Below are positions 6,118 through 16,796 of a DNA stretch of 29,875 nucleotides, in pieces (position 1 is the stretch's first letter; each line of letters opens with the position of its first letter). The translations under genes and the position numbers were made by a program. The stretch covers positions 1-29,875 of the IMG/VR virus record IMGVR_UViG_3300044699_000034; one strand, written 5' to 3'. The notes under the pieces are model-generated. The model did not search any database. It was given only the letters and a program-made list of their open reading frames with translations, and was not told the origin of the DNA. The stretch is from a virus.

Positions 6118-6530
6118 CTAGTCCTTCGCAGGGGCGTTAGCCTTGATGTAGTCGAGCATGGCCTGAGCGTCAGAGTCCCAATCCAGGTTGCGGGCCGCTT
6201 CTGCCTCAGCCTCTTCCTGTGGCACGATGGCGTCCAGATATCCGGCACCGAACGTCGCAGCTTGGCAGCGTATCCAGCTTTGCTCGCTCGGCAGTCGGCG
6301 CACTTTGGTTGATGACCCTTGAAGCGGTGAGCCTCGCACTCATCTTCTTCGCCGTAGCCGAATTCGGCCTCGAACGCATCGCAGCCAGAACACGAGCCGT
6401 AGCTGCCGTGAATCCACCCGGTCTGCCCGTTGACCGTGACCAGCGCCCACCAGTCGCCCTGATAGCTGCCGAACTGCTCAAAACGGTGAACCGTAGCGCC
6501 AGCCGCCTCTAACGCTTCTTGATAAGCCAT
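6118..6530 (-). CDS. Conserved phage hypothetical protein, frameshifted
   Basis: The N-terminal part reads MAYQEALEAAGATVHRFEQF and GSYQGDWWALVTVNGQTGWI, followed by HGSYGSCSGCDAFEAEFGYG, a pattern I know from uncharacterised phage proteins. CSGC and later CADC may bind metal. After a frame change near 6270 it continues AATFGAGYLDAIVPQEEAEA and ends DAQAMLDYIKANAPAKD. The start at 6530 is chosen over 6551 because homologues begin MAY. It is the first gene of the leftward arm. Role unknown. Confidence 0.65.
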
Positions 6531-6614: not shown

Positions 6615-6797
6615 ATGCGATACCTCACCGACGGCACACGGGTCAGCGTCCAGGCGATGCGTTACGACCCCACGACACAGAAATACAAGCGGAACGGGCA
6701 GACTGAGCGCGTATCGGTCGAGAACGCCAAGGAAGCGGACGCGCTGTGGCGGTTCATCGTCTCTCAGATTCGGCTCTGGAAGGCACGCGCAAAATAG
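6615..6797 (+). CDS. Small basic protein, first gene of the rightward arm
   Basis: A 60-residue basic protein, MRYLTDGTRVSVQAMRYDPT then TQKYKRNGQTERVSVENAKE, ending WRFIVSQIRLWKARAK. No ribosome binding site precedes the ATG, which fits the near-leaderless promoter described upstream. The first-gene position and strong positive charge would suit a regulator or nucleic-acid binder, but this is a guess; no family recognised. Confidence 0.65.
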   Translation: MRYLTDGTRVSVQAMRYDPTTQKYKRNGQTERVSVENAKEADALWRFIVSQIRLWKARAK

Positions 6798-8211: not shown

Positions 8212-8423
8212 GGCTCCTCGGCCCCCGCGCCCCGAGATGCGACGAGACGACCGGCCCGGCGCTCATCGACCGCATCGCGCGCCTGCAAACGCCGCATCGG
8301 GTGCATCTGGTTCGGTGGCTCTGGTCGCTGCAATTATGGGACAACCTGCGGCGCGACGGTTACGAGGCGGTGCTCGCACGGATGCGCCGGAAGCCGAGGC
8401 GGCGCGGGATTCAGATTTCTTAA
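8208..8423 (+). CDS. Small basic hypothetical protein
   Basis: A 71-residue, arginine-rich protein (MRLLGPRAPRCDETTGPALI, DRIARLQTPHRVHLVRWLWS, ... MRRKPRRRGIQIS) with an amphipathic helix around LVRWLWSLQLWDNLRRDG. The ATG at 8208 overlaps the upstream stop; a GTG at 8202 is the alternative. The basic tail suggests nucleic-acid contact. No family recognised. Confidence 0.6.
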   Translation: MRLLGPRAPRCDETTGPALIDRIARLQTPHRVHLVRWLWSLQLWDNLRRDGYEAVLARMRRKPRRRGIQIS

Positions 8424-8444: not shown

Positions 8445-10061
8445 ATGGCACGCACCAAGATACGAAGCGCGCACTCATCGACGGTGGACGGCAATGTGGC
8501 AGACGATGACTATCGCGCCGTGCTGGCGCATTTCAACGAGTCCGCGCTCGCGCGCATCGCGTCGGGTCCGGTGTTCACGACAGATGCTGCTGATTTGTTC
8601 GATGACTACCTGCGGATGTTTCCGGCATCACTCCGACAGCACCACACTTGTTCTGCGTGCAAGTCGTTCGTGGAGAGCTACGGCGGGCTCGTGACAATCG
8701 ATGCGCAGGGCGTGACTGAGTCGGTGTTCTGGCCTGATGGCGCAGAGTGGTCCGCCGAGTACGCCGCACCGATCACCGAATTGCGGGCGCGTGTGCGCGC
8801 AGCCAAGGTTACGGGCGTGTTCCTGTCCAAAGACTCCGTGTGGGGCAAGCCGGTGACGGGTCCGTGGCGACATTTCGCGGTCACGCTCGCCAAGCCGTTG
8901 CCGCGTCGGTCACGTGTGTTGACGCCTGGCCAGGAGATGGCCGAACGTCGGCAGGATTACGCGACAGTGATGACCGCGCTCGGAGAGTGGTCGGTGGATG
9001 TGCTCAATGCCGCCGTCAACCTGCTTGACTCAGACGCGCTGTATCGATCAGAGAAGTTGCTCGGGGCGGCGACGTGGCTCCGCGATCTGGCCGTGGCAAA
9101 GCGTGACACGAGGGGTCGCACGACAAGTAATCTCGTCTGGCGTGCCATCGGTAGCGCACCGGCAGGATTCTGTCATCCGCGCTCGGGTATGATCGGGACG
9201 CTGCTGGACGATTTGTCGAACGGGTCTGCCTTCGACGCCGTTGCTCGGCGGTTTGCCGACAAGATGCACCCGCTGCGCTACCAGCGTCCGCAGGCGGCGC
9301 CGTCAGCGGGCACGATCGCGCAGGCCGAGAAGATTGTCGAACAGCTCGGCATCGCGCGTGCGCTGGTGCGCCGGTTCGCTCGGTTCGATGAAGTGCAGAC
9401 CTTTTGGACGCCGTCGCCGTCATCGGAGGGTGTCAAGACTGGCGGTGTGTTCGGCCACTTGAAGCCGAAGGGGACCGCCGCCGATGTCTCGCTGTCCGTG
9501 CCCACGCGCGCGATGTCGTGGGCAGTGTTTCAGCGCGACGTCTTACCGCGCGCGAAGGCGTTGCAGGCTCTTGCGCCTGCGCTCGGCAACTACGTGACAC
9601 TGACGACCGCTGAGCACGCTGATGCGCAGCCGATCATGCAGTGGGACAGAGACGATGCGAGAAACCCGGTGTGCTGGTATGTCTGGCATGGCGGATCGAC
9701 CGCCGCGCAGTATGGCTTGGCCCCAAACGCGTGGGTGTCCGTCATCGGCTTGAGCCGATCGCCACACGAATGGAACGGAACGAAGTCCGCTCACTTTGGC
9801 GCGAGTGTGCTGGTGTTCTTGGAAGGCGCCAAGGAAACGCGAAACGCGGGGTCTGCGCTGTTTCCGGAGTGCTTGAAGTCAGACCTTCACAGCGTCCGTG
9901 CGGTGGTGGAGGCGCATTCGCGGTCACAGAATCTCGTGAGCCACGGCGACCATGCTGGCGCAACGGCCCTGCGGATCTCATCCGACAAAGACGCGGGCGT
10001 TCAGTTGCGCGTGACGATCGATGGCGTGACATCAGCGTATCGAATCGATCGCTGGGAATAA
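8445..10061 (+). CDS. Large conserved phage protein of unknown function
   Basis: A 538-residue soluble protein that I know as a recurrent but uncharacterised protein of environmental phages. Recognisable blocks are LRQHHTCSACKSFVESYGGL near residue 70, VTGVFLSKDSVWGKPVTGPW near 125, a helical middle with DALYRSEKLLGAATWL, then SAPAGFCHPRSGMIGTLLDD, QRPQAAPSAGTIAQAEKIVE, MQWDRDDARNPVCWYVWHGG, FLEGAKETRNAGSALFPECL and a final YRIDRWE. HTCxxC could bind metal. The ATG at 8445 has GGAG six bases upstream and is preferred to the ATG at 8433. It is the only large gene of this arm before the nuclease block, so a replication or host-takeover job is plausible but not shown. Confidence 0.85.
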   Translation: MARTKIRSAHSSTVDGNVADDDYRAVLAHFNESALARIASGPVFTTDAADLFDDYLRMFPASLRQHHTCSACKSFVESYGGLVTIDAQGVTESVFWPDGAEWSAEYAAPITELRARVRAAKVTGVFLSKDSVWGKPVTGPWRHFAVTLAKPLPRRSRVLTPGQEMAERRQDYATVMTALGEWSVDVLNAAVNLLDSDALYRSEKLLGAATWLRDLAVAKRDTRGRTTSNLVWRAIGSAPAGFCHPRSGMIGTLLDDLSNGSAFDAVARRFADKMHPLRYQRPQAAPSAGTIAQAEKIVEQLGIARALVRRFARFDEVQTFWTPSPSSEGVKTGGVFGHLKPKGTAADVSLSVPTRAMSWAVFQRDVLPRAKALQALAPALGNYVTLTTAEHADAQPIMQWDRDDARNPVCWYVWHGGSTAAQYGLAPNAWVSVIGLSRSPHEWNGTKSAHFGASVLVFLEGAKETRNAGSALFPECLKSDLHSVRAVVEAHSRSQNLVSHGDHAGATALRISSDKDAGVQLRVTIDGVTSAYRIDRWE

Positions 10062-10168
10062 ATCAAGTTTCCGCCCCGTCGCGCGGCACAAGAGGACCGC
10101 GCCGCCGCAATCCTGCGGTGTGGCTTGGAACACCAGCGGGGCGGAACGTTTTCGTAGGAGGCGAGCAA
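10062..10168. other. Gap before next gene
   Basis: Nothing gene-like is seen in these 107 bases except a strong ribosome binding site, AGGAGG at 10156-10161, belonging to the next gene. A short 5-bp stem (CCGCA/TGCGG) is too weak to call a terminator. Confidence 0.5.
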
Positions 10169-10384
10169 ATGGGCTGCATCAAGAACATCAGTATCAGCGA
10201 GTGGCCCAAGCAGGGCTCGCACTTGGGGAAGCGCGTCAAGGTGTGTTTTCACTTCGATGCGTCTCGGTCGGTGATGGGCACTGTCGTGCGAGACGACGCC
10301 GAAGAACCGCACCGGACCATTATCAGTTTGGACAATGGCCGCGTTGTGCTGGCGACTGAGTGCCAGTATTCGACTCAGGCTTAA
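10169..10384 (+). CDS. Small hypothetical protein, 71 residues
   Basis: The start has a perfect AGGAGG at 10156-10161, eight bases from the ATG. The protein reads MGCIKNISISEWPKQGSHLG, then KRVKVCFHFDASRSVMGTVV and ends GRVVLATECQYSTQA. The alternating hydrophobic pattern suggests a small beta-barrel (SH3- or OB-like). No family recognised. The strong site implies high expression. Confidence 0.7.
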   Translation: MGCIKNISISEWPKQGSHLGKRVKVCFHFDASRSVMGTVVRDDAEEPHRTIISLDNGRVVLATECQYSTQA

Positions 10385-10394
10385 CGTAACGCAT

Positions 10395-10479
10395 GGACAG
10401 CGTAGCTCAGAGGCAGAGCGCGCAATGTCGCCGGCTCTATGCCGGGCGAGGTCGCCGGTTCGATTCCGGTCGCTGTCCA
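10395..10479 (+). tRNA. Unusual tRNA-like gene, CTA in the anticodon loop
   Basis: GACAGCG at 10396-10402 pairs with CGCTGTC at 10471-10477, and G10395 with C10478 extends the stem to 8 bp. TA follows, then a D-arm GCTC/GAGC with GG in its loop, and a textbook T-arm GCCGG-TTCGATT-CCGGT at 10454-10470. The anticodon hairpin is CCGG-CTCTATG-CCGG, placing CTA at 10437-10439 after the conserved T33; CTA would read the stop codon UAG. Oddities: about ten extra bases lie between the D-stem and the anticodon stem, position 37 is a T rather than a purine, and CCA is not encoded. It could be a suppressor tRNA, a tRNA with an assembly insertion, or a tRNA-like RNA. Confidence 0.6.
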
Positions 10480-10502
10480 CTTAATTTTCATCAGGAGACA
10501 TC

Positions 10503-10706
10503 ATGGCAAAACCGAGCGCTGTATCGTTGGTCGTGGCGCGCATCGACGCGGACATTGCGAGCCACCAGAAGGAAATCAACAAGTTGGAAGGCATGCGGAG
10601 CTACGTGCTGCACCGCGGCGTCGAGACCGCGCCTGCCGACAAGCCCAGGACGCGCCAGCGCGGCCCGAACAAGCCGAAGCCGGTCGAGACGGAGCCCGCG
10701 CAGTGA
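10503..10706 (+). CDS. Small lysine/proline-tailed protein, 67 residues
   Basis: A good ribosome binding site (AGGAGA) precedes MAKPSAVSLVVARIDADIAS HQKEINKLEGMRSYV, a predicted helical pair, followed by a basic, proline-rich tail (TRQRGPNKPKPVETEPAQ). The basic tail suggests DNA binding. The stop overlaps the next GTG start. No family recognised. Confidence 0.65.
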   Translation: MAKPSAVSLVVARIDADIASHQKEINKLEGMRSYVLHRGVETAPADKPRTRQRGPNKPKPVETEPAQ

Positions 10707-11260
10707 CCGCCGATCTGCTGCGGCGGCAGTTATGGGCTGCTGCTCAGGTATTTCCAGACCACTGCCGGTCCGCCGCACTGATGGCCGTCGGCGCGCAAAC
10801 TGCCCTGCAACGGGCGCATGTCGTCGGTATCGACGCGGCGCTGCGCGAGTTGGAGCCTGAGCTGTCCGACGACGACACGATCCGCGCCTGCCGCTCCGCG
10901 CTGAAAGCCACGCACGATCCTTTTCAGCAGCCTCACGGTAGCCCCGGCGGCGACGACATCGACGCTTCGCACGTCCGGCACATGGCCGTGCAGGATCGCG
11001 TGATGCGCGAGCTGTCCGCGCAGGATGCCGTGCGCGCCTGCCGCTCCGCGCTGCAACAGGCGGCGGAGCGGATTCTGGCGACAGCGCAGCGGTCGGACCC
11101 ATCGGACGAAGTGACGCGGATTGTCGGTCGACGGCCGGGTAACACACGGGCGGCTACGGTCGCCCATTGCACAGGAGCGAACACATGGACGTGCGCACAC
11201 TCTACGACAAGGAATACCTCTACGCGTTCGATCTCCAGGGGAAGGACGTCACGGTCGTAA
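10703..11260 (+). CDS. Hypothetical helical protein with internal repeat
   Basis: A GTG start overlapping the upstream stop opens TADLLRRQLWAAAQVFPDHC. The motif ELSDDDTIRACRSALKA recurs as ELSAQDAVRACRSALQQA 50 residues later. The open frame runs 75 bp into the next gene, which starts with a good ribosome binding site at 11185, so the true end may lie near 11140 if there is a frameshift, or the genes may really overlap. Function unknown. Confidence 0.5.
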   Translation: MTADLLRRQLWAAAQVFPDHCRSAALMAVGAQTALQRAHVVGIDAALRELEPELSDDDTIRACRSALKATHDPFQQPHGSPGGDDIDASHVRHMAVQDRVMRELSAQDAVRACRSALQQAAERILATAQRSDPSDEVTRIVGRRPGNTRAATVAHCTGANTWTCAHSTTRNTSTRSISRGRTSRS

Positions 11261-16382: not shown

Positions 16383-16460
16383 GGCTCCGTAGCTCAAATG
16401 CGGCAGAGCAGCTGCCTTGTAAGCAGACGGTTGTCGGTTCAACTCCGGCCGGGGCCTCCA
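16383..16460 (+). tRNA. tRNA-Thr(TGT)
   Basis: Acceptor GGCTCCG pairs with CGGGGCC (one G-U). D-arm GCTC/GAGC, anticodon arm with loop CTTGTAA (anticodon TGT, Thr ACA codon), T-arm GTCGG-TTCAACT-CCGGC. CCA is encoded at 16458-16460. One mismatch at the base of the anticodon stem. Confidence 0.9.
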
Positions 16461-16485
16461 TCCAACCTCCACATCGCCCGTGATT

Positions 16486-16550
16486 GCGGTGCCGAATGCT
16501 CGGCGCGACTACATTGGTAGTTGTCGCGCCCTCGTTCTTGTCGGCACCGC
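16486..16550. ncRNA. Nested hairpin of unknown function inside the tRNA cluster
   Basis: GCGGTGCCGA at 16486-16495 pairs perfectly over 10 bp with TCGGCACCGC at 16541-16550. Inside it GGCGCGAC at 16502-16509 pairs perfectly with GTCGCGCC at 16523-16530, capped by a further TAC/GTA step and an ATTG loop. It lacks tRNA D- and T-arm signatures on either strand, is followed by TTCTCTTTAG rather than a T-run, and lies between tRNA-Thr and tRNA-His. It could be a processing signal or a small structured RNA. Confidence 0.5.
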
Positions 16551-16562
16551 TTCTCTTTAGCT

Positions 16563-16637
16563 TTGGTCGATCCGCAATGGATGCGGGCCGCACTGTGACT
16601 GCGGCGTAGACGGGTTCGATTCCCGCCGACCAACCCA
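16563..16637 (+). tRNA. tRNA-His(GTG)
   Basis: Acceptor TTGGTCG pairs with CGACCAA. The D-arm is CCGC/GCGG, and the anticodon arm CCGCA-CTGTGAC-TGCGG gives anticodon GTG. The T-arm is ACGGG-TTCGATT-CCCGC with one outer mismatch. The discriminator is C as usual for histidine, and CCA is encoded. The base at -1 is T rather than G. Confidence 0.88.
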
Positions 16638-16639
16638 AC

Positions 16640-16714
16640 TGGGGTATGGCCGAGAGGTTAGGCGTTCGCTTTGGGAGCGAAAGATCGGGGGTTCGATTCC
16701 CTCTGCCCCAACCA
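16640..16714 (+). tRNA. tRNA-Pro(TGG)
   Basis: Acceptor TGGGGTA pairs with TGCCCCA. The anticodon arm TTCGC-TTTGGGA-GCGAA gives anticodon TGG, and the T-arm is GGGGG-TTCGATT-CCCTC. Discriminator A and encoded CCA at 16712-16714. Only two bases separate it from tRNA-His. Confidence 0.9.
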
Positions 16715-16722
16715 TTCACTAC

Positions 16723-16796
16723 GGGGAAGTCGTTCAGCGGTAGGACGTCGCCCTTTGAAGGCGAACACGGTGGTTCGATTCCATCCTTCTCCGCCA
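16723..16796 (+). tRNA. tRNA-Gln(TTG)
   Basis: Acceptor GGGGAAG pairs with CTTCTCC. The D-arm is GTTC/GGAC, and the anticodon arm TCGCC-CTTTGAA-GGCGA gives anticodon TTG. T-arm GGTGG-TTCGATT-CCATC, discriminator G, encoded CCA at 16794-16796. It ends three bases before the stop of the opposing gene. Confidence 0.9.

Follow-up and report, generated by a model that had tools for sequence, protein, structure and literature searches.

Sequence 10395-10479 on the + strand of a virus record of 29,875 bases (the window, analysed over its whole length) is likely a gene derived from a tRNA that no longer decodes, with a diverged, T-arm-like hairpin in place of the anticodon arm. Five features are read from the sequence: an intact tRNA body, an internal repeat, the lack of a standard anticodon arm, the lack of an encoded CCA, and absence from the closest relative. 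The gene and its neighbours comprise the following elements.

10395..10479, + strand: whole tRNA-like gene, with a tRNA body and a rebuilt anticodon arm (sequence; ARAGORN tRNA-???; Rfam RF00005, 45.1 bits)
10395..10402, + strand: acceptor stem of 8 bp, 5′ strand with G-1 and nt 1-7 (8/8 pairs with 10471-10478)
10405..10419, + strand: D arm GCTC-AGAGGCA-GAGC (4/4 pairs)
10421..10448, + strand: 28-nt segment replacing the 17-nt anticodon arm (sequence, Rfam alignment, ARAGORN)
10425..10448, + strand: T-arm-like copy ATGTCGCCGGCTCTATGCCGGGCG, 19/24 identical to 10449-10472 (24-nt direct repeat at a spacing of 24; shuffles)
10431..10445, + strand: hairpin CCGGC-TCTAT-GCCGG, with CTA at 10437-10439 in the loop (sequence, folding)
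10449..10472, + strand: variable loop AGGTC followed by the T arm, which itself spans 10454-10470; source-like copy of the repeat (sequence, 24-nt repeat, Rfam model)
10471..10478, + strand: acceptor stem, 3′ strand; ACTT comes next and no CCA is encoded (sequence)
10169..10384, + strand: upstream gene of 71 aa (phrog_9720), whose end lies 10 nt from the tRNA-like gene (gene call, profile match)
10503..10706, + strand: downstream gene, 67 aa, starting about 23 nt past the tRNA-like gene (gene call)

Read directly, the tRNA-like gene is GGACAGCG-TA-GCTC-AGAGGCA-GAGC-G-[CGCAATGTCGCCGGCTCTATGCCGGGCG]-AGGTC-GCCGG-TTCGATT-CCGGT-CGCTGTCC-A. The acceptor, D and T arms are canonical, with a T loop that fits TTCRA, and all 17 pairs of the three stems are formed, one of them a G-U pair in the T stem. 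Specifically, the acceptor stem GGACAGCG/CGCTGTCC comprises 8 bp, a His-like G-1:C73 plus seven pairs, beyond which one extra outer T:A pair is possible (at most 9 bp); the T stem has 5 bp, the T loop is TTCGATT, and the variable loop is AGGTC. In a permissive search of a 301-nt stretch, the Rfam tRNA model RF00005 (gathering score 29) matches the gene at 45.1 bits (E 1.1e-8); the default fast Rfam scan of the whole window missed it. The coordinates given in a preliminary description of this DNA are correct, and its excellent acceptor, D and T arms are borne out. ARAGORN, suggested there as a check, calls a tRNA at 10395-10479 but cannot place its anticodon ('tRNA-???', gtcg). CCA is not encoded (ACTT stands in its place), in contrast to the four other tRNAs of the window. 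These are Thr, His, Pro and Gln genes at 16383-16796, a stretch absent from the closest relative (L002), and their tRNA-His has T, not G, at position -1. When 10395-10479 is folded as an isolated RNA, the structure of lowest energy differs from the cloverleaf (−42.9 versus about −37.9 kcal/mol). A tmRNA-like identity was rejected, its 9.5-bit score being that of a chance match.

The departure from a tRNA lies in the anticodon-arm region. Nucleotide 26 and AGGTC are separated by 28 nt, as against the usual 17 nt, so that the surplus noted in the preliminary description is real and amounts to 11 nt; in the RF00005 alignment the anticodon arm shrinks to CGC/GCG around a 22-nt insert. The hairpin loop CTCTATG, earlier said to present CTA, is indeed present and is closed by CCGG/CCGG, but its terminal C and G pair with each other to leave TCTAT, and the 5-bp/7-nt geometry of an anticodon hairpin is not obtained. 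In the standard register the stem stops short of 5 bp, the next apposition being G × G. Position 37 is T, as in 9 of the 252 tRNAs called across the compared loci, a set that includes some irregular calls. The segment does not form a canonical anticodon arm (5 bp, 7-nt loop, U33 and purine 37).

The segment instead resembles the T arm of the same gene. ATGTCGCCGGCTCTATGCCGGGCG at 10425-10448 and AGGTCGCCGGTTCGATTCCGGTCG at 10449-10472 (variable loop, T arm and first acceptor bases) agree at 19/24 positions as a tandem unit of 24 nt, and a scan of the rest of the window found no equally similar segment. The ungapped repeat score of the arm against its own T arm is 14; among the matches listed, the same comparison gives 8 or less in 88 other distinct elements, and about 7,800 cross comparisons of an arm with a T arm give 13 or less. 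A score of 14 was reached by 1/20,000 mononucleotide shuffles, 0/20,000 dinucleotide shuffles, 1/20,000 random 5-bp/7-nt hairpins, and 43/20,000 arms in which the GCCGG/CCGG stem was held fixed. Because 10425-10448 matches the gene's own T arm, CTA falls on the T-loop positions C56-R57-A58: CTCTATG takes the place of TTCGATT, with CTA at C56, at G57 (now T) and at A58. Of the five differences between the copies, two (T54 to C and T60 to G) create the C-G pair that leaves the loop TCTAT. Judging from these sequences, the rebuilt arm most likely originated when the gene's own variable loop and T arm were duplicated, the copy then diverging; derivation from the T arm of another tRNA, or convergence on a GC-rich hairpin, is less likely. 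The acceptor, D and T arms belong to a tRNA whose acceptor is His-like (G-1:C73). A remark in the preliminary description, that this might be a tRNA-His-like 8-bp acceptor with a lost anticodon arm, came closest to this account.

The same repeat bears on the possibility of an assembly or sequencing artefact, raised earlier as an inserted segment. The gene is carried by one metagenomic contig, and no second copy was found in the collections searched, as would be expected of an error; against this, the 24-nt copies differ at five positions, and deletion of one copy leaves no anticodon arm and restores no normal tRNA. We regard an artefact as highly improbable.

That CTA can be accounted for as part of a T-loop copy also weighs on the earlier proposal that the gene reads UAG. 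A functional suppressor tRNA directing regulated readthrough would draw on the intact body and on a CTA that follows T in a 7-nt loop. Opposing it are the 11 extra nucleotides, the missing 5-bp stem at the standard place, T37, and the C-G pair closing the loop, so that CTA sits inside a T-arm-like copy in a non-standard arm and not in a decodable anticodon. The genome gives no sign of readthrough or recoding either: TAG, TGA and TAA are exchanged at orthologous stops. In particular, the genes ending at 6797 and 5058 have TAG in the window and TGA in the closest relative, the gene ending at 8423 has TAA in the window and TAG in the relative, and at 6118 and 18676 both genomes stop with TAG. Among 39 rough gene calls of the window, TGA ends 24, TAG 10 and TAA 5; ten TAG ends are a further point against suppression. 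No tRNA above threshold was found in the record of the relative (41,785 bases, which may be a fragment), and the exchange of stops with a relative in which tRNAs are not detectable speaks against suppression. TAG behaves as an ordinary stop in the window. The preliminary description was correct that UAG is not globally recoded, but its suggestion of partial UAG readthrough is not supported. It is very unlikely that 10395-10479 reads UAG stop codons, and a regulated suppressor tRNA is scarcely credible.

The non-decoding tRNA-derived gene occupies a slot whose content varies. The closest relative shares about 69-94% identity in the larger surrounding blocks, mostly at least 79%, and has a close relative of the downstream gene 10503-10706. 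Between that gene and a conserved motif at 10066-10149, it carries an RNA ligase gene (PF09414; L002:6488-7090), which occupies the slot of the window's gene 10169-10384 and the tRNA-like gene; since the slot content differs, 10395-10479 belongs to an exchangeable cassette. The tRNA-like gene is absent from a second relative (L003) too. No close homologue emerged in similarity searches, and exact searches of viral contigs for the junction of D arm and rebuilt arm and for the arm hairpin gave no match. The upstream gene was considered as a carrier of the tRNA-like gene and rejected: none of its homologues compared (L124, L125, phage Dori and ICP1) has such a neighbour, and the L125 homologue is located among ordinary tRNAs. 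The motif at 10066-10149 is itself a non-coding 84-nt element, 94% identical in the relative (L002:6202-6284), that folds as a four-way junction, closed by a stem of 11 bp and bearing three hairpins (z −3.8 and −3.1). It has no Rfam match at E 1, and in other viruses it was found only in this relative, apart from a chance coding match.

Elements of similar build occur elsewhere. Nearest to the window gene are an element on a plasmid of Streptomyces (79% identity across 68 nt, E 4e-4) and one in Stenotrophomonas phage C121 (L258:1495-1573), both with lengthened arms. The C121 element has the same body type, a T-arm-like CCGG-TTCGCTG-CCGG in the anticodon place and no CCA; it differs in having A73 and an arm that is 4 nt shorter than that of the window gene and does not duplicate the T arm beside it (GTGGG). 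The C121 element lies within 1.7 kb without annotated genes (L258:520-2243), which also holds a tRNA-Asn-like gene with a poor acceptor and more strong hairpins.

Another family occurs in Pseudomonas phages and plasmids, with members on several IMG/VR contigs, in phages Haboob and Itty13 (unannotated in each), in phage Shamal (overlapping a hypothetical ORF), and on P. aeruginosa plasmids, at the following loci.

L248:3001-3121: Pseudomonas-family tRNA-like element
L249:3001-3122: Pseudomonas-family tRNA-like element
L250:3001-3087: Pseudomonas-family tRNA-like element
L255:2501-2586: Pseudomonas-family tRNA-like element
L256:2501-2585: Pseudomonas-family tRNA-like element

The family has a 12-bp acceptor stem and a nearly invariant arm of 41-43 nt. 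Relative to the other members, Itty13 changes six acceptor pairs and one T-stem pair on both sides; in the family alignment 100% of cells are paired and 0/500 shuffles reach the observed values, this covariation coming mainly from the Itty13 sequence. From this pattern, phages seem able to maintain a tRNA body that lacks a decoding arm; it does not show as much for 10395-10479. The window gene shares with the family canonical D and T arms, AGGTC, a G-1:C73-type acceptor and the lack of a decoding anticodon arm, and, as in most members, ACT follows directly 3′. It differs from the Haboob type, with its 12-bp acceptor and AGCGAGCGC...CATGC arm, in that its acceptor is shorter, at 8 bp (9 at most), and its arm is unrelated. 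A gap in the locus tags of L255 and L256 suggests that the original annotation holds an RNA gene, and the paper describing Haboob and Shamal gives ordinary tRNAs, entries that may include the tRNA-like element (PMC11846083). In phage Haboob, an RT-15 RNA (RF03018, 155.6 bits; L248:4723-4899) lies just before an annotated reverse transcriptase gene.

The pattern AGCTCAGN{3,6}AGAGCN{27,45}AGGTCNNNGGTTCGA, which itself selects intact D and T arms and makes no demand on acceptor pairing, matched at least 119 viral stretches, representing at least 89 distinct elements including that of the window. Among the matches listed, 84 of the 89 distinct elements have at least six of seven acceptor pairs and 67 have all seven; only nine form at least four of five pairs at the standard anticodon-stem place, seven of these with U33. 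The set is mixed, comprising class II-like tRNAs (among them an Ile(UAU) type) and many elements without a recognisable anticodon. An extended acceptor does not mark the class as a whole, being confined to the Pseudomonas family and a few others. The set also includes a tRNA-Arg(CCT)-like gene on the minus strand of L112, in whose anticodon loop about 11 nt are tandemly duplicated (TTTCCTAAAC twice). Applied to prokaryote genomes, the same pattern returned, among the matches listed, many tRNAs of archaea that carry intron-like inserts (5-bp stem, U33) and few odd bacterial ones; viral and prokaryote frequencies are not comparable, both counts being among the matches listed.

These sets bring in a further reading, in which 10395-10479 is a tRNA that becomes usable once a short, intron-like insert has been taken out. 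The archaeal genes offer one parallel, and viral tRNA-Gly(GCC)-like genes (L021:1128-1200, L022:4468-4540 and L115) another: in them about 25 nt forming a hairpin are inserted after the anticodon, and L021 and L022 differ there by compensatory changes. (In phages RcXuper and MD18, the best match to these insert-bearing genes is a tRNA-Gly of ordinary length.) An intron of the bulge-helix-bulge type would lie at 37/38 beside a 5-bp stem; the window gene has only three outer pairs (CGC/GCG) and no bulge-helix-bulge, removal yields no plausible 5-bp stem with U33, and the ARAGORN intron solution leaves a poor stem. An intron is extremely improbable.

More weight attaches to the proposal that 10395-10479 is a selectively maintained non-decoding RNA that keeps the tRNA body as a tool and has a functional rebuilt arm, although we consider it doubtful. 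It fits the acceptor pairing of the viral set, six or seven of seven pairs in 84/89 distinct elements among the matches listed and unasked by the pattern; the two-sided pair changes and nearly invariant arm of the Pseudomonas-phage family; the 17/17 intact body pairs of the window gene, as against five differences between its repeat copies; and the C-G pair made by two of those differences. Against it, the window gene has no homologue and hence no direct sign of selection, the Pseudomonas arm is unrelated in sequence to that of the window, and the family's covariation is mainly that of Itty13. Such an RNA might conceivably serve as a processing or stability signal, or as a mimic that binds tRNA enzymes or tRNA-targeting defences. 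Equally tentative is an extension to the wider set, under which phages would carry a broad, largely unannotated class of tRNA-bodied RNAs with the anticodon arm replaced by other hairpins and with non-decoding roles, the window member having recruited its own T arm.

In a literature search of partial coverage, no description of phage tRNA-like genes with rebuilt anticodon arms was found. The nearest described precedent among the papers found is the pseudo-tRNA tRNA-Other of Bacillus cereus, which is not functional in translation and has been proposed as a structural part of a larger regulatory RNA (PMC3399842). The window gene, in sequence and structure, is likewise a tRNA body unable to decode; in contrast, tRNA-Other is chromosomal, lies beside a genomic island and has demonstrated expression. 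Phage tRNAs are also described that evade tRNA-cutting defences (PMC10264068, PMC11555353). These resemble the window gene in being phage-encoded, and the latter may similarly serve against host defence; they act as working tRNAs, however, and the window gene has no usable anticodon arm.

Search of 9900-10800 found no -35/-10-like or terminator-like sites. The non-decoding tRNA-derived gene would be co-transcribed within its same-strand gene run. RNase P and RNase Z recognise chiefly the acceptor/T-arm half of a tRNA. By these general properties of the enzymes, the gene is probably still an RNase P/Z substrate, and its ends would be cut by the two. At most, it would give the transcript a stable structured element or a processing element; otherwise it may be persisting as a relic.

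The analysis removes one candidate stop-codon suppressor and shows how the duplication of a T arm can take on the look of an amber anticodon, a pitfall when phages are annotated. Many viral genes keep the tRNA body and not the anticodon arm; if some of them are maintained, as the two-sided pair changes of the Pseudomonas family suggest, phages would be using tRNA mimics for something besides codon reading.
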